Positions 13,014-19,262 of a stretch of 64,000 nt of DNA are shown one piece after another (the stretch's first letter is position 1; every line of letters begins with the position of its first letter). The stretch lies in contig NZ_JAUGQQ010000006.1 of the NCBI RefSeq assembly GCF_030410135.1, positions 1 through 64,000 of the forward strand, given 5' to 3'. Both the position numbers and the translations under genes were made by a program. The notes under the pieces were generated by a model. That model was not told where the DNA came from, searched no databases, and saw only the letters and a program-made list of their open reading frames with translations. The stretch comes from Aequorivita aurantiaca. GTDB lineage: Bacteria; Bacteroidota; Bacteroidia; Flavobacteriales; Flavobacteriaceae.

Positions 13014-15629
13014 ATGTCGAAGAAGGAAACCCCGTTAATGAAACAGTACAATACGATTAAAGCGAAGTATCCCGACGCTTTGCTGCTGTTTCGAGTGGGC
13101 GATTTCTACGAAACGTTTGGCGAGGATGCCGTGCGTGCAGCGGGAATTCTAAATATTACGCTAACCCATAGAAATAATGGGGGCGACCGCACTGAACTCG
13201 CTGGTTTTCCGCACCATTCCCTAAATACGTATTTGCCGAAATTGGTTATGGCGGGCTGCCGCGTTGCAATCTGCGATCAGCTCGAAGACCCAAAAATGAC
13301 CAAAACCATTGTGAAACGTGGCGTTACCGAATTGGTAACCCCGGGCGTTGCATTTAATGATGATATTCTAAAATCGAAATCCAATAATTTTTTGGCGGCT
13401 GTCCATTTTGGAGCTAAAAATCTGGGCGTTTCCTTTTTGGATGTTTCCACGGGCGAGTTTTTGGTCTCGGAAGGTAATACGGAATATGTGGACAAGCTGC
13501 TGCAGAATTTCAACCCTTCGGAAGTACTTTTTTCCAAACAGAAACGGAAGCTTTTTACGGATACCTTCGGAGGCAACTATCATGTTTTTCATTTGGAAGA
13601 TTGGATTTTTCAAAGCGATTATGCTTTTGAAACACTCACAAAACATTTCGATGTAAAAAATCTAAAAGGTTTTGGGGTCGATCATATGGAAGAGGGGATA
13701 ATCGCTGCCGGCGCCGCGCTTCATTACTTAAGCGAAACGCGCCACACAAAATTGCAGCATATTTCGCGCTTGTCGCGCATAGCCGAAGATGAATACGTGT
13801 GGATGGACCGATTTACCATTCGCAATTTGGAGCTGTATCATTCCAATCAGCAAAACGCGGTTACGCTATTGGATGTGATTGACAAAACCATTTCGCCAAT
13901 GGGCGGAAGGCTTTTGAAGCGTTGGATGGCGCTTCCGCTGAAAAATCCTGACAAAATTGTACGCCGTCACGAGGTTGTGAGTTTTCTTTTGGACAATCCA
14001 ATAACGTTGGAAAAAACCCAACAATACACAAAACGCATTGGCGATTTAGAGCGATTGATTTCAAAAGTAGCCACTGGAAAAGTGAATCCGCGCGAGGTTA
14101 TTCAACTTAAAAATTCGTTGGAAGCCGTTGTTCCAATAAAAGCGCTTGCATTAAATTCCAAAAATGAATCCCTGAAAATTATTGGCGAACAATTGCACGA
14201 TTGCGAATTGCTTCGGAATAAAATAAAGGAAACACTTTTTGAGGAAGCACCCGTAAACATTTTAAAGGGAAATTCCGTAGCCGAAGGTTTTTCGGAAACG
14301 CTCGATGACTTGCGGAATATTTCAGCAAACGGAAAAGGGTATTTAAATGAAATGCTGGAACGCGAAACCAAACGCACGGGAATTTCTTCGCTTAAAATTG
14401 ATTCGAACAATGTTTTTGGATATTATATAGAAGTCAGAAATACCCATAAAGACAAGGTGCCACAGGAATGGATCAGAAAGCAGACTCTGGTTAGTGCCGA
14501 AAGATATATTACCGAGGAATTAAAAGAATACGAAACGAAAATCCTGGGCGCCGAGGAAAAAATCCTTGCGCTGGAACAGGAAATTTTTGCGAAATTGGTG
14601 GAATGGATGCTTCAGTTTATTGGTTCGGTGCAGCAAAATGCCGCTTTGATTGCGCAATTGGATTGCCTTTGCTCCTTCGCTACCCAGGCCAAAGAGGCGA
14701 ATTACACGCGTCCACTTTTAGATGAAACCTTTGATTTGGATATAAAGGAAGGTCGCCACCCGGTAATTGAAAAGCAACTTCCGCCGGACGCGCCGTACAT
14801 TGCGAACGATGTTTTTCTCGATCGTGAAAATCAGCAAATTATTATGATTACTGGGCCCAACATGAGCGGTAAATCTGCTATACTTCGGCAAACGGCTTTG
14901 ATTGTTCTGTTGGCGCAAATGGGCAGTTTTGTTCCTGCCAAAGCCGTGCGAATGGGTTGTGTGGATAAGATTTTTACGCGCGTTGGTGCAAGCGATAATA
15001 TTTCGATGGGCGAATCAACTTTTATGGTTGAGATGAACGAAACGGCGAGTATTCTAAATAACCTTTCAGAAAGAAGTTTGATTCTTTTGGATGAAATTGG
15101 CCGAGGAACCAGCACCTACGATGGAATTTCCATCGCTTGGGCCATCAGCGAATATTTGCACGAACATCCATCAAAAGGAAAAACGCTTTTCGCCACGCAT
15201 TATCACGAATTGAACGAAATGACCGAAACTTTTTCGCGGATAAAAAATTACAATGTTTCGGTAAAGGAATTGAAAGACAACGTACTTTTTCTTCGGAAAT
15301 TGGTTCCCGGCGGGAGCCACCACAGTTTCGGAATCCATGTTGCAAAAATGGCGGGAATGCCGCAAGCAGTGCTTCAACGGGCGAATAGAATATTGAAAAG
15401 ACTTGAAAAAAGCCACGCCTCCGAAGAATTGACCGAGGAAATGAAAGCGGTTTCAAAAGAAGAAATGCAACTCAGCTTTTTTAAACTTGACGATCCACTT
15501 TTGGAAGAACTTCGCGAAGAGATTTTAGAGATTGATATTGACACACTTACGCCGGTTGAGGCATTGATGAAATTGAACGAGATTCGCCGAATGCTCCAGC
15601 GCAACGCAACGGTGAAAATCAAAAAATAA
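13014..15629 (+). CDS. mutS: DNA mismatch repair protein MutS
   Basis: Recognises mismatches and small loops and, with MutL, starts mismatch repair. The 871-residue length is normal for MutS1. The mismatch-reading Phe-X-Glu is in [11 protein letters not shown] near residue 31. Core and clamp domains follow, and the C-terminal ATPase has Walker A (GPNMSGKS, about 614-621), Walker B ([17 protein letters not shown]) and an ATHYHEL switch. No mutL is adjacent. The start codon is directly preceded by a run of 7-bp repeats. Two tRNA genes follow about 100 bp downstream with their own promoter. Confidence 0.97.
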
Positions 15630-15657
15630 AATTCACAAATAATTTATTGAAAAAGAC

Positions 15658-15687
15658 TTTGCTTTTGAAGTAAAATTTTTAAATTTG
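15658..15687 (+). promoter_or_regulatory. Promoter of the tRNA genes
   Basis: TTTG at 15658-15661 and TAAATTTG at 15680-15687, 18 bp apart, match the Bacteroidota housekeeping promoter (TTTG / TANNTTTG). Transcription would begin near 15693, about 35 nt before the mature 5' end of tRNA-Gly. Confidence 0.65.
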
Positions 15688-15727
15688 CTCCCGCTTTCAA
15701 TAGGAAGCAGCGTTCATTAAATTTTCT

Positions 15728-15800
15728 GCGAAAATAGCTCAGTTGGTAGAGCGCCACCTTGCCAAGGTGGAGGTCGCGGGTTCGAATCCCGTTTTTCGCT
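15728..15800 (+). tRNA. tRNA-Gly (GCC)
   Basis: A 73-nt cloverleaf: acceptor GCGAAAA/TTTTCGC, D arm GCTC...GAGC, anticodon arm CCACC TTGCCAA GGTGG with anticodon GCC, T arm GCGGG TTCGAAT CCCGT, discriminator T. No CCA is encoded; this is usual in the phylum. Confidence 0.96.
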
Positions 15801-15807
15801 CAACCTT

Positions 15808-15834
15808 AAATGCCGATGCAATTCGGCATTTTTT
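15808..15834 (+). terminator. Hairpin/T tract between the two tRNA genes
   Basis: AATGCCGA (15809-15816) pairs with TCGGCATT (15823-15830), followed by TTTT. It has the form of a rho-independent terminator, yet only 27 bp remain before tRNA-Leu, so it may act as a partial terminator or processing structure. Confidence 0.65.
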
Positions 15835-15861
15835 GTTAAGTCTGAGTTGTAATTAACAACT

Positions 15862-15945
15862 GCTCGAGTGGTGGAATTGGTAGACACGCCGGACTTAAAA
15901 TCCTGTGACCATTTGGTCGTGCGGGTTCAAGTCCCGCCTCGAGTA
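15862..15945 (+). tRNA. tRNA-Leu (TAA)
   Basis: An 84-nt class II tRNA: acceptor GCTCGAG/CTCGAGT, D loop with TGGTAGACA, anticodon loop CTTAAAA giving anticodon TAA, a long variable arm (TGACCATTTGGTCGT) and T arm GCGGG TTCAAGT CCCGC. The anticodon stem has one apparent C-T mismatch. Confidence 0.95.
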
Positions 15946-15946
15946 C

Positions 15947-15979
15947 AAAGTCTCTTCGTAATTGAAGAGGCTTTTTTTT
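15947..15979 (+). terminator. Terminator after tRNA-Leu
   Basis: AAGTCTCTTC pairs with GAAGAGGCTT (one G-U) around a short GTAATT loop and is followed by a run of T's. Confidence 0.85.
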
Positions 15980-15995
15980 ATTGATTTTATAAAAC

Positions 15996-16026
15996 AAAAA
16001 AAGTCCTTTCACCACTGAAAGGACTT
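15996..16026 (-). terminator. Terminator of the small lipoprotein gene at 16052-16291
   Basis: An 11-bp perfect stem (AAGTCCTTTCA at 16001-16011 with TGAAAGGACTT at 16016-16026) and 4-nt loop; on the reverse strand it is followed by a T run (A's at 15996-16000). Confidence 0.85.
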
Positions 16027-16051
16027 TCTGATTTTTTAGCAAAAAATTTGC

Positions 16052-16291
16052 TTATTGGCCGTCAGTAGCGTCTTCTACAGCATCCTGAGTTTCGTCAGCA
16101 GCATTCTCGATAGCGTCGCCAGTGTCCTCAGCAGCTTCCTCGATAGCATCTCCTGTGTTGTCCATAGCATCTTCTACATCGTTAGTTGTAGTTTCAGCAG
16201 TATCGTCAACTTTTACTTCTGTAGTTTCTCTGCAAGAGTAAACTGAAAATACTAATGCAAGTGCGGCAAGTGATAAAAATACTTTTTTCAT
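16052..16291 (-). CDS. Small acidic lipoprotein, CRET type
   Basis: A 79-residue lipoprotein. The signal peptide ends in FSVYSC, so Cys20 would be lipidated and the mature protein starts CRETTEVKVDD. The rest is a low-complexity, very acidic Ala-rich helix with a repeated NTGDAIEEAAEDTGDAIENA pattern (TGDAIE twice) and no hydrophobic core, so it is probably an extended or coiled-coil anchor. Two further small lipoproteins at 19317-19807 begin with the same CRE tripeptide after the lipobox. Function unknown. Its own terminator and a 50-bp leader indicate a monocistronic gene. Confidence 0.8.
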   Translation of the reverse strand: MKKVFLSLAALALVFSVYSCRETTEVKVDDTAETTTNDVEDAMDNTGDAIEEAAEDTGDAIENAADETQDAVEDATDGQ

Positions 16292-16342: not shown

Positions 16343-17110
16343 TCAGCAATTTTTTTCAGATAAATATTTCCAATACCTTTTTGGAATGTGTTTTATGTGC
16401 AATTTCATATTCTTGCGGGATTTTATGTTGCTGTTTTTAAAATAGTTTCCCCATAATTCCTGAAACTGCATTTCATCAATAGTGAAATAACGTTGCAACT
16501 GAGATTTTTGATTGATTTCAGAAGAAAATTCCAAGGTGATTGTTTCCATTTTTTCCAAATTATAATAGATGCCATAATTTCTTTTCAAATCGAATATTAA
16601 CCACTTTTGATCTGCATATCTCTTTTTAAAGTGACCGGCATTTAATGGTAAAACATTAAAGTCTGGTTCAATCGTGGCAAAATAAATTCCGTCTTGCGTT
16701 AATCGAAATCTCACGAAAGCATCCATTCGATGCTTTTCCCGACTTACCTTTTTGGCAATTTTATCAACCAATAGCACATTTTGATCGGTAAAATCTGTTT
16801 CAATATTTTTTTCCGAGGTTAGCCCCCGACGGATATAGCCCAAAATTGTATTTTCCATCTGAGGTATTTCACTTAAAAAAGTTTTGTAAAGCTTCATTTT
16901 TCCTTCAGGCGATATTTTTTTTGAAATACCTTTCCAAACTCTTGTGGCTTTTTTTGCATCAGTGACAATTTCTTCCTCAGAATCAAAAAAAGTTGACGAA
17001 GCGATTTCAGTTTTAATAATTTCAACCTTTTCTAATTTATATTCATAAATATGAAAAATTGAAGTTAGCAACCCTTCAAAAGTGCCGTCATATTTTATAA
17101 TTTCAATCAA
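16343..17110 (-). CDS. Putative DNA repair/metabolism protein partnered with a radical SAM enzyme (TIGR03915-like, DUF4130)
   Basis: A 255-residue cytosolic protein. The start (YDGTFEGLLTSIFHIYEYK), the VSREKHRMDAFVRFRL block in the middle and the IEPDFNVLPLNAGHFKKRYADQKW segment after it are the signature of the SAM-associated DUF4130 family, which nearly always sits beside the radical SAM gene found here. Its reaction is not established; nucleic-acid repair or modification is the family annotation. Its start overlaps the stop of the upstream radical SAM gene by 4 bp (ATGA), so the two are translationally coupled. Regulation is probably through the dyads upstream of that gene. Confidence 0.85.
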   Translation of the reverse strand: MIEIIKYDGTFEGLLTSIFHIYEYKLEKVEIIKTEIASSTFFDSEEEIVTDAKKATRVWKGISKKISPEGKMKLYKTFLSEIPQMENTILGYIRRGLTSEKNIETDFTDQNVLLVDKIAKKVSREKHRMDAFVRFRLTQDGIYFATIEPDFNVLPLNAGHFKKRYADQKWLIFDLKRNYGIYYNLEKMETITLEFSSEINQKSQLQRYFTIDEMQFQELWGNYFKNSNIKSRKNMKLHIKHIPKRYWKYLSEKNC

Positions 17111-18390
17111 AATGACGAAGTATTTTGTGTCTCAAAAAGGTTTAGTTGAGGGCTAAGCATTCCTTTGAATTTACTGGTGGAATTTGAAAATATGAGCCCC
17201 TTTATTTGCGCGGCGGTTCTGTCTTTCGTTTCAAAAATTCTGGAATCGCAGGTGATGAAATATTTTGCCCGATTTAACGAAGCACCGATTATTTTAAGGT
17301 TGTCCCAATTCAATTTTCTGAATTTCCGTGCATGAATAATTTTATGGACAGATTTTACGCCAAAGCCGGGAACCCGTAGCAACATTCTCATATCCGCAGT
17401 ATTCACATTAATGGGAAATTGATCGAGATTCCGGAGCGCCCAGCTCAATTTTGGATCAATATCCGATTCCAAATTTGGAAATTCCCTGTTCAACAATTCC
17501 CGAATTTCAAAGCCATAAAAGCGCATTAACCAATCAGTTTGGTATAATCTATTTTCACGCAATAATGGAACCTCCGATCCAATGGAAGGCAGGCGTGGGT
17601 CATAACTTATGGGAATATAGCCCGAATAATATACCCTTTTAAGATTATAATTTTTATAAAAATGTGCCGAAGTGTACATAATTTCAGCATCTGTTTCGCC
17701 GCTGGCGCCAACAATCATTTGGGTGCTTTGGCCCGCCGGCGCGTAGAGCGGAACTTTTTTTAATAATTTTTTTTCGTTTTTATATTGAATAATCTCATTT
17801 TTTACCTTTTCCATCGGCTTAATAAAGTCTTTTCTGTCCTTATCTGGCGCTAATAATTTCAAGCCTTTTTCTGTGGGAATTTCTATGTTCACTGAGAGTC
17901 TATCAGCATATAATCCGGCTTCTCTCATTAATTCGTCACTTGCTCCGGGGATTGATTTTAAATGAATATAACCATTGAAATTTTCCTCTTCCCGCAATTT
18001 TTTCGCCACGGAGATCAATCGCTCCATGGTGTAATCCGCATTTTTGAAAATTCCGCTGCTTAAGAAGAGTCCTTCAATATAATTTCTTCTGTAAAAATTA
18101 ATGGTAAGATCCACAACCTCCTGAACTTTGAAAGCTGCACGTTTTATATCATTGCTTTTTCGGGTCACGCAATATGCGCAATCAAAGATGCAATGATTGG
18201 TCAGTAGAATTTTTAAGAGTGAAACACACCGACCATCTTCAGTATAACTATGGCAAATGCCCATACCCGTGCTGTTGCCCAAACCCTTATTTTTATTTTG
18301 TCTACTACTTCCGCTTGAAGAGCAGGAAACGTCATATTTTGCGGCATCCGCAAGTATACTGAGCTTTTCTTTTATTCTTTCGAAATTCAT
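17107..18390 (-). CDS. Putative DNA modification/repair radical SAM protein (TIGR03916-like)
   Basis: A 427-residue radical SAM enzyme. Cys67, Cys71 and Cys74 in CIFDCAYC form the CX3CX2C motif that binds the 4Fe-4S cluster and S-adenosylmethionine. The preceding GICHSYTEDGRCVSLLKILL block is family-typical. Residues about 320-375 contain a helix-hairpin-helix DNA-binding segment (VNTADMRMLLRVPGFGVKSV), which supports action on DNA. Substrate is unknown. It forms an operon with the DUF4130-type gene and diverges from a LexA-like repressor with a 101-bp operator-rich gap, which suggests damage-inducible control (inference). Confidence 0.87.
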   Translation of the reverse strand: MNFERIKEKLSILADAAKYDVSCSSSGSSRQNKNKGLGNSTGMGICHSYTEDGRCVSLLKILLTNHCIFDCAYCVTRKSNDIKRAAFKVQEVVDLTINFYRRNYIEGLFLSSGIFKNADYTMERLISVAKKLREEENFNGYIHLKSIPGASDELMREAGLYADRLSVNIEIPTEKGLKLLAPDKDRKDFIKPMEKVKNEIIQYKNEKKLLKKVPLYAPAGQSTQMIVGASGETDAEIMYTSAHFYKNYNLKRVYYSGYIPISYDPRLPSIGSEVPLLRENRLYQTDWLMRFYGFEIRELLNREFPNLESDIDPKLSWALRNLDQFPINVNTADMRMLLRVPGFGVKSVHKIIHARKFRKLNWDNLKIIGASLNRAKYFITCDSRIFETKDRTAAQIKGLIFSNSTSKFKGMLSPQLNLFETQNTSSF

Positions 18391-18395
18391 TTTGC

Positions 18396-18474
18396 TGGGA
18401 ATATTGCCAAAAATATGGAATAATTCCTACTTATTTGGATTATATCCATTATATTTTTTGGATATTTTCCAATT
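18396..18474. promoter_or_regulatory. Cluster of operator-like GGA-N5-TCC dyads
   Basis: In the divergent gap, three dyads share T(A/T)TGGA-N5-TCC: TATGGAATAATTCCT (18414-18428), TTTGGATTATATCCA (18434-18448) and TTTGGATATTTTCCA (18457-18471). A degenerate fourth, GGA-N5-GCC, is at 18398-18408 beside the radical SAM start codon. Half-site starts lie 19, 20 and 23 bp apart, about two helical turns. The last dyad overlaps the -33 element of the repressor promoter, as expected for autoregulation. Confidence 0.7.
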
Positions 18475-18487
18475 TTAACTATATTTG
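18457..18487 (+). promoter_or_regulatory. Promoter of the LexA-like repressor gene
   Basis: TTTG at 18457-18460 and TATATTTG at 18480-18487, separated by 19 bp, match the Bacteroidota promoter consensus. The -7 element ends 4 bp before the ATG at 18492, so the transcript would be leaderless or nearly so. Confidence 0.65.
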
Positions 18488-18491
18488 TTTT

Positions 18492-19262
18492 ATGGGAAAA
18501 CAATTAGCTATTGAGGCTCAACGATTTAAAAAAATCAGGGAAGAGTTTCGTCATACACAGCAATCCTTTGCTGAATTATTAGGTATTGGCACCACCACCG
18601 CCGATTTGGAGAGGGGCAAAACCAAAATTACGGGTAAAATCGTGATGGAATTAATGAATCAATTCAACATAAATCCGCTGTGGCTTTATGGAAAGAGTTT
18701 CGAAAAATATATCAATTTGTCACAGGGCGATGTAAGTCCAAAGGTGATTTCCGTTGATGATTCGGGCAATGACACCATTCTATTGGTAAATCAAAAAGCA
18801 GCGGCCGGGTATCCAAATAATATACAGGATGTGGAATGGTATCAATCCTTGCCCGCATTCAATATTCCGTTGCCCGAATATAGAAATGCCTCCTACCGCG
18901 GCTTTCAAGTAGAAGGCGATAGTATGTTGCCAAGCCTGCGGCCAAATGAATGGGTTTTGGGCCGTGCCGTTCCCAATATTGATGAGGCTTCCGATAGTAA
19001 AATTTATATTGTTGTTCTAAGAGATTCGGTTTTGGTAAAAAAACTCCAAAAGATTCCGAACAATCTGCAAAGTATTCGATTGATTTCCCTGAATCCAGAG
19101 TATTTGCCTATAGATGTGCGCGTAAAGGACATTCAAGAATTGTGGCAAGTGAATAGTAAGTTAAGTTTCGGGGTGGATGAACCGGTGGAAAGTAATCTTC
19201 TCCGTCAATTGCAGAAATCCATGGATGATTTGAAAGGACAGATCAGCAGTTTAAAGCAATAA
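18492..19262 (+). CDS. LexA-like repressor: HTH plus self-cleaving S24 peptidase domain
   Basis: A 256-residue protein. Residues about 8-60 are an XRE-type helix-turn-helix (HTQQSFAELLGIGTTTADLERG). The C-terminal half is a peptidase S24 domain: an Ala105-Gly106 bond in AAAGYP is in the position of the LexA cleavage site, Ser144 in EGDSMLPSL is the nucleophile, and Lys183 in VLVKK is the general base. The last 20 residues look coiled-coil. The expected mode is repression until damage or RecA-triggered self-cleavage. The start at 18492 was preferred to an upstream ATG at 18435 because the latter would extend into the operator and promoter. It diverges from the radical SAM repair operon. It could also be a phage-type CI relative, but no phage genes are near. 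Confidence 0.87.
   Translation: MGKQLAIEAQRFKKIREEFRHTQQSFAELLGIGTTTADLERGKTKITGKIVMELMNQFNINPLWLYGKSFEKYINLSQGDVSPKVISVDDSGNDTILLVNQKAAAGYPNNIQDVEWYQSLPAFNIPLPEYRNASYRGFQVEGDSMLPSLRPNEWVLGRAVPNIDEASDSKIYIVVLRDSVLVKKLQKIPNNLQSIRLISLNPEYLPIDVRVKDIQELWQVNSKLSFGVDEPVESNLLRQLQKSMDDLKGQISSLKQ

Follow-up and report, generated by a model that had tools for sequence, protein, structure and literature searches.

Genes and organization of the locus

The 64,000-nucleotide stretch of DNA analyzed here (hereafter the window; positions 1 to 64,000 of contig NZ_JAUGQQ010000006.1) is part of the 3.09-Mb genome of Aequorivita aurantiaca and contains a gene for a CI-like SOS repressor divergent from an operon that encodes a radical SAM (rSAM) putative DNA repair protein and its DUF4130 partner. 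The locus is very probably an autoregulated SOS hub, from which the repressor controls itself, the rSAM-DUF4130 operon and further repair genes. The residues, promoters, dyads, conservation and genome-wide set of sites on which this reading builds are read directly from the sequence.

The repressor gene (18492-19262, forward strand) encodes 256 residues and belongs to the S24 family, as a non-canonical LexA of the GGA-N5-TCC group. In the Pfam scan the protein matches PF00717 (45.4 bits) and the helix-turn-helix (HTH) family HTH_3 (PF01381; 27.1 bits against a cut-off of 23); no LexA model was matched at E 0.001, HTH_3/HTH_19 being found instead, and no solved structural relative was found at E 0.01. 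The full S24 apparatus described in the earlier note is present exactly as given (Ala105-Gly106, Ser144 and Lys183, counted from M1 at 18492). A survey of 120 genomes of the family identified a close orthologue (E below 1e-70) in 47, and the equivalents of the Ala-Gly, Ser and Lys residues are kept in all 44 readable rows, the remaining three of the 47 being unreadable under the start codon chosen. The repressor is the sole PF00717 match found in the genome.

The rSAM gene (17107-18390, reverse strand; 427 residues) scores 672.4 bits against TIGR03916 (rSAM_link_UDG; curated cut-off 343.5), and its protein is 88-89% identical to the nearest named relatives, from Aequorivita. The CX3CX2C motif reported earlier (Cys67-x3-Cys71-x2-Cys74) is invariant in the family alignments. 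The helix-hairpin-helix (HHH) region claimed for this protein held up in part: HHH_3 reaches 22.4 bits, below its 27-bit cut-off, and the family profile matches RuvA chains at the C-terminal end (E 0.0018 and 0.0034). The structure model was too poor to use (mean predicted local distance difference test score, pLDDT, of 61.5). Three more cysteines (23, 46 and 55) are invariant and could form a second metal site. The DUF4130 gene (16343-17110, reverse strand; 255 residues) matches TIGR03915 (SAM_7_link_chp) with 279.6 bits against a cut-off of 112.25 and Pfam DUF4130 with 174 bits. As noted earlier, the two genes overlap by 4 bp (TTGA, 17107-17110), the TTG start of DUF4130 overlapping the rSAM stop.

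Dyads and promoters in the divergent gap

The gap between the repressor ATG at 18492 and the rSAM start codon is 101 bp long and contains three exact dyads packed within 54 bp: GGAATAATTCC (18417-18427), GGATTATATCC (18437-18447, in the middle of the gap) and GGATATTTTCC (18460-18470). A degenerate fourth, GGA-N5-GCC (18398-18408), adjoins the rSAM start. Over the whole window the bare GGA-N5-TCC pattern occurs at chance level (15 seen versus 11.85 expected). The earlier description of three evenly spaced dyads plus a degenerate fourth is right as to number; the spacing is only roughly even, and strict regularity was rejected, with GGA-to-GGA distances of 19, 20 and 23 here and two clusters in relatives (18-20 in 32 of 75; 21-23 in 34 of 75).

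The predicted repressor promoter, TTTG-N19-TATATTTG (18457-18487, forward strand), is what we take to be a full Bacteroidetes-type promoter. Its TTTG (18457-18460) is separated by 19 nt from TATATTTG (18480-18487) and overlaps the dyad at 18460, in agreement with the earlier observation that one dyad covers part of the -33 element. The -7 box ends 4 nt before the ATG, so the repressor mRNA is probably near-leaderless, with transcription predicted to begin on the ATG or right beside it. At least 19 of the 47 repressor relatives have TAnnTTTG 11-12 nt upstream of their start codon. On the opposite strand, the predicted rSAM -7 box TATTTTTG (18408-18415) follows the dyad at 18417 by 1 nt. This arrangement recurs among the best 80 of 577 named rSAM loci, where an exact dyad lies at most 110 bp from the rSAM start in 23 loci and TAnnTTTG stands 0-1 nt behind the dyad in 21 of these. 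Given the positions of the dyads on the -33 element and against the -7 box, a bound repressor would be expected to occlude both divergent promoters.

Conservation of the dyads in repressor promoters

The 47 repressor promoters contain 120 exact dyads, compared with a mean of 1.5 and a maximum of 5 in shuffled sequence. At least one exact dyad is present in 45 of the 47, and most promoters carry several (none in 2, one in 3, two in 16, three in 19 and four in 7). One promoter counted as having none belongs to an rSAM locus (L118) and runs against the dyad-number trend given below; this count is an artefact of the limited stretch scanned, the gap being long there, and the same genome shows two dyads when scanned from the rSAM side (L109). 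In the 30 closest relatives, counted from the start codon of the repressor, the sites lie near -31, -54, -73 and -92; the site near -92 is often degenerate, and a dyad with 0-1 mismatch at this position recurs in several relatives. None of 20 weaker repressor homologues has GGA-N5-TCC in its own promoter. Assigning these weaker homologues to the group with the other published motif, CTAA-N5-TTAG, was considered and not adopted (exact CTAA-N5-TTAG within 200 bp in 0 of 20; six with a one-mismatch site).

A repair gene is the divergent partner of the repressor in 32 of the 47 genomes: rSAM in 16, DUF4130 without rSAM in 10, DinB in 4, SRAP in 1 and UvrA in 1, with other genes in the remaining 15. 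Nine partner or operon proteins were identified by Pfam and the others by eye or by TIGR03915 (the DinB of locus L128 by eye). Three or more dyads are found at 25 of the 32 loci with a repair partner versus 1 of the 15 without (Fisher p 4e-6), a contrast inflated by relatedness. Most simply, the outer dyads would act on the promoter of the divergent gene.

Association of the rSAM operon with the repressor

The rSAM gene (TIGR03916) is present in 28 of the 120 genomes, 21 of which also encode a close repressor. Dyads lie directly upstream of rSAM in 18 of these 21 (16 adjacent to the repressor and 2 moved away, G087 and G100), and the number rises to 20 of 21 when two longer operons are included. 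One of these, in G111, clearly faces the repressor and has the order dinB-dnaE2-rSAM-DUF4130, with rSAM in third place; the other, in G010, is a more widely spaced series SRAP-dinB-dnaE2-rSAM-DUF4130 of which rSAM is probably a part. Only G063 has a repressor and no dyads for its rSAM operon. By comparison, none of the seven genomes with rSAM and without the repressor has dyads upstream of rSAM. Of the 28 rSAM loci, 16 keep the gene order, and none of these 16 has fewer than two exact dyads between the divergent genes, the conservation in relatives on which the earlier note had staked its proposal. Where rSAM has moved off the repressor, dyads are kept in 2 of 5 genomes and in 4 of 14 named loci.

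The named rSAM loci, comprising the best 80 of 577, were scanned over 150 bp and grouped by eye from their record titles; this set and the 28-genome set may overlap in species. Dyads lie within 150 bp in 19 of the 22 Flavobacteriaceae-like loci where rSAM adjoins the repressor, and 226-459 bp away in the other three. In total, Flavobacteriaceae-like loci have GGA-N5-TCC in 23 of 36 and CTAA-N5-TTAG in 0 of 36, whereas Sphingobacteria-type loci (with a few of Chitinophaga or Cytophaga type) have CTAA-N5-TTAG in 22 of 25 and GGA-N5-TCC in 0 of 25.

Individual loci show further variation. In G063 (L246) a different helix-turn-helix gene is divergent from rSAM. No SOS motif lies upstream of rSAM in L168 and L171 (Cellulophaga and Formosa), where an AT-rich palindrome resembling ATATCATAATATGATAT is found instead and another regulator has perhaps taken over. 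An enumeration aimed at a common dyad for Chryseobacterium gave nothing convincing. One flavobacterial-type repressor-rSAM locus (L165) appears under a Saccharospirillaceae metagenome-assembled genome title and is probably a mis-binned contig. In the window, the cassette is flanked at 13014-16291 by mutS, tRNA-Gly, tRNA-Leu and a small lipoprotein-like open reading frame (ORF); a small ORF of similar kind directly faces the repressor in relatives without rSAM-DUF4130 (L034, L040, L048 and L053), as if the cassette were able to come and go.

The predicted regulon across the genome

The strict motif WTGGAWWWWWTCCWW gives 27 strand hits at 17 distinct places in the genome, compared with 4 for the reversed pattern used as a control. 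Nine of the 17 places are shared out among five promoters of repair genes (three in this gap, two at dnaE2-dinB, two at a splB-like gene and one each at Ku/exonuclease and UvrD/GIY-YIG), seven are inside ORFs and one is in a gap without a nearby gene start. The scan for dyads upstream of other repair genes proposed in the earlier note thus adds four promoters to the one at this locus, which holds the strongest dyad cluster of the genome. The splB label of the radical SAM gene on contig C11 was given by eye, Pfam reporting Radical_SAM only.

The single perfect dyad at C44:224628 (L082, site 3130) lies between Ku and an RNase_T/GIY-YIG exonuclease, and the gene behind Ku was labeled LigD-like by eye; from the position of this site, end-joining genes may be under SOS control here. 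Another dyad (C53:35235; L084, L245) lies between a UvrD-type helicase and a 444-residue GIY-YIG protein, and the UvrD-type open frame reaches back nearly to this dyad, with no ATG.

DUF4130 with and without its rSAM partner

TIGR03915 is found in 38 of the 120 genomes versus 28 for TIGR03916, and the difference is accounted for by ten genomes with DUF4130 and no rSAM (G018, G026, G030, G032, G037, G056, G102, G103, G104 and G106). NCBI reportedly describes the two families as always co-occurring. All ten solo DUF4130 genes are divergent from the repressor; in a tree of the repressors the genomes with solo DUF4130 lie clustered, though not as one clean clade. Solo proteins score 114-218 bits against TIGR03915, compared with 249-286 bits in the 28 paired ones. 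Two blocks that are otherwise invariant have decayed in the solo proteins. All 85 rows of the paired alignment (which counts the DUF4130 of the window twice) keep R124, H127, R128, R134, R164, D167 and Q168, as well as W220, R232, N234, P243, R245, Y246 and W247, whereas the ten solo rows keep, for example, H127 in 2, W220 in 2 and W247 in 1. Other positions (D8, G13, S80, W170, D174 and R177) are kept in all ten solo rows. From residue 211 onwards, the tail carries a mean net charge of +4.6 in the paired proteins, compared with +1.3 in the solo ones.

The AlphaFold2 model of DUF4130 has a pLDDT of 87.7, with a poorly modeled invariant tail (57, 55 and 44 in the blocks from residue 231), as expected if this segment folds on a partner. 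A Foldseek search of the PDB ranked DHH-type proteins highest, with 8a8k first (E 9.9e-5, probability 1.00) but with a template modeling score (TM-score) of 0.41 and a root mean square deviation of 8.4, followed by 5yh1 (E 9e-4) and by RecJ at 0.05 and weaker. Among the first 16 BFVD rows, eight are named DHH or DHD, four are named phosphoesterase, phosphohydrolase or exopolyphosphatase, one is named repair exonuclease and three are nameless, with E 9e-4 and up and low TM-scores. The fold predicted for DUF4130 thus points towards the DHH/DHHA1 phosphoesterases (RecJ, NrnA/PAP phosphatase), which it does not resemble in sequence: comparison by hhalign with NrnA-like and RecJ alignments gave probabilities of 0.03 and 0.14 percent, the DHH metal triad is absent (positions 12 and 51 are variable), and only a motif-I-like Asp8 is kept (84 of the 85 rows). 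A search for a solved relative gave only chance-level S100A6-type matches. DHH membership by sequence was therefore rejected, the profile comparison giving nothing, and since the TM-scores are also low the predicted DHH/RecJ-like fold is a lead and not an assignment.

Interpretation and alternatives

In the undamaged cell, the CI-like repressor would occupy the dyads of the gap and block its own promoter and that of rSAM-DUF4130. Once RecA filaments form on damaged DNA, Ser144/Lys183 would be stimulated to cut the repressor at Ala105-Gly106. The repressor would then leave the dyads, and the repressor gene, rSAM-DUF4130, dnaE2-dinB and the splB-like gene would be induced, probably together with the Ku and UvrD/GIY-YIG genes. 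Binding, cleavage and induction are extended here from a published relative. The rSAM-DUF4130 pair is most likely one two-subunit enzyme acting on a DNA lesion, in which the HHH end of rSAM and the basic tail of DUF4130 would hold DNA or each other; the chemistry itself is conjectural. The proposal of the earlier note that the repressor governs both itself and the divergent operon through the dyads is supported by the conserved dyads of the gap and by the published class to which the repressor belongs.

Several observations weigh against the SOS hub. The dyad-number contrast is tied to ancestry: the repressor tree offers only three supported independent pairs, which agree in direction 2.3 times on average and are never opposed, and three pairs are too few for significance in a sign test. 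No promoter dyad was found at recA (C11:518060), the second dinB (C11:267696) or either SRAP locus, all of which were rejected as targets; measured against that of E. coli, the regulon is therefore partial. Among the best 80 of 577 rSAM loci, neither motif was found in any of 16 Chryseobacterium and 3 Flavobacterium loci or in 10 of the 14 Flavobacteriaceae-like loci with rSAM away from the repressor. Control by damage was shown in another species, by the mitomycin C and gel-shift experiments of PMC8565304, and would apply here by analogy.

A two-gene damage response confined to this locus, the small, self-contained system of the earlier note, would suit the position of the strongest dyad cluster in the genome, and is nevertheless very unlikely: nine strict sites are spread over five repair promoters, with two sites each for dnaE2-dinB and for the splB-like gene and single ones at Ku/exonuclease and UvrD/GIY-YIG, and one S24 protein only was found to serve them all. 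An N-terminal domain of CI/HTH_3 type might also be expected of a prophage or mobile-element repressor lying beside repair genes by chance; the single close orthologue (E below 1e-70) in each of 47 of the 120 genomes, chromosomal surroundings (mutS, tRNA-Gly, tRNA-Leu) and repair genes as recurrent partners make such an origin extremely improbable, though no search aimed at prophages was made in the window.

A different question is what the pair acts upon. It could modify RNA or protein and be induced by damage for a reason other than DNA repair, and the published accounts covered, which describe the pair by association and in which no biochemistry was found (PMC8565304, PMC3765255), leave room for this. 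Such a role is nonetheless rather unlikely, considering the HHH/RuvA-like end of rSAM, the operon shared with dinB-dnaE2 in G111 and probably G010, and the damage-type motifs that precede the operon in two lineages, each with the motif of its own repressor group. Returning to repair of a DNA lesion, a more specific model is possible though doubtful. Here DUF4130 would descend from RecJ/DHH-like proteins, no longer capable of metal-phosphoesterase chemistry and now indispensable as second subunit of a radical SAM enzyme that repairs DNA lesions, with REKHRMxxFVRF and the basic, by itself disordered tail RKNxKLHxxHxPKRYWKYL completing the rSAM active site on DNA; the decay of these blocks upon loss of rSAM, while the remainder of DUF4130 and its position under the SOS repressor persist, would then point to a second, rSAM-independent SOS job.

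The regulatory part of these results confirms a published system and extends it to one more genus. To this are added the dyad-number contrast, the range of partners, the motif swap, the decay of solo DUF4130 and a predicted DHH-like fold without sequence support. An enzyme pair with unassigned chemistry is tied firmly, on comparative grounds, to damage control in two lineages whose repressor motifs differ, and the ten genomes lacking rSAM constitute a natural experiment that points to DUF4130 residues important for the pair. The biochemistry of rSAM-DUF4130 thereby becomes directly testable.

Comparison with known systems

The arrangement is similar to that of lambda CI and its operators in joining CI-type DNA-binding and self-cleaving domains with several operators between divergent promoters. 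It differs in that the repressor is chromosomal and no Cro-like opposing repressor lies in the gap. Canonical LexA has the RecA-type self-cleavage residues and the role in common with the repressor described here, which has HTH_3 in place of the LexA winged helix.

The closest system is the class named "non-canonical LexA" by Sanchez-Osuna 2021 (PMC8565304), whose main text describes two repressor groups with the motifs GGA-N5-TCC, mainly in Flavobacteriaceae, and CTAA-N5-TTAG. The S. agarivorans protein was reported there to gel-shift GGA-N5-TCC, and induction by mitomycin C was shown, recA not being induced. The repressor described here shares with the GGA group the S24 catalytic residues, the CI-like HTH, the motif and its presence in the own promoter, and the regulon shares dnaE2-dinB, splB, the COG1573-COG4277 repair operon listed among the published targets, and the exonuclease/GIY-YIG protein. 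The passages of PMC8565304 covered here do not mention the fixed multi-dyad array, the swapping of partners, Ku as a candidate target or DUF4130 without its partner, and the words Aequorivita, end joining, LigD and COG0178 are absent from its main text.

In the portion of PMC3765255 covered, DUF4130 is predicted to be an enzyme related to mutagenesis and is associated both with SplB-like proteins and with uracil-DNA glycosylases; here it is without a uracil-DNA glycosylase domain, and it stands without rSAM in ten relatives. A literature search by family names, mostly outside subscription papers, found no biochemistry for rSAM-DUF4130. The genes of the window correspond to the putative TIGR03916/TIGR03915 repair pair in scoring far above both cut-offs, in overlapping and in lying under a damage motif. 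With the repressor class, the motif and the operon type already published, the locus is a well-supported additional member of this system.

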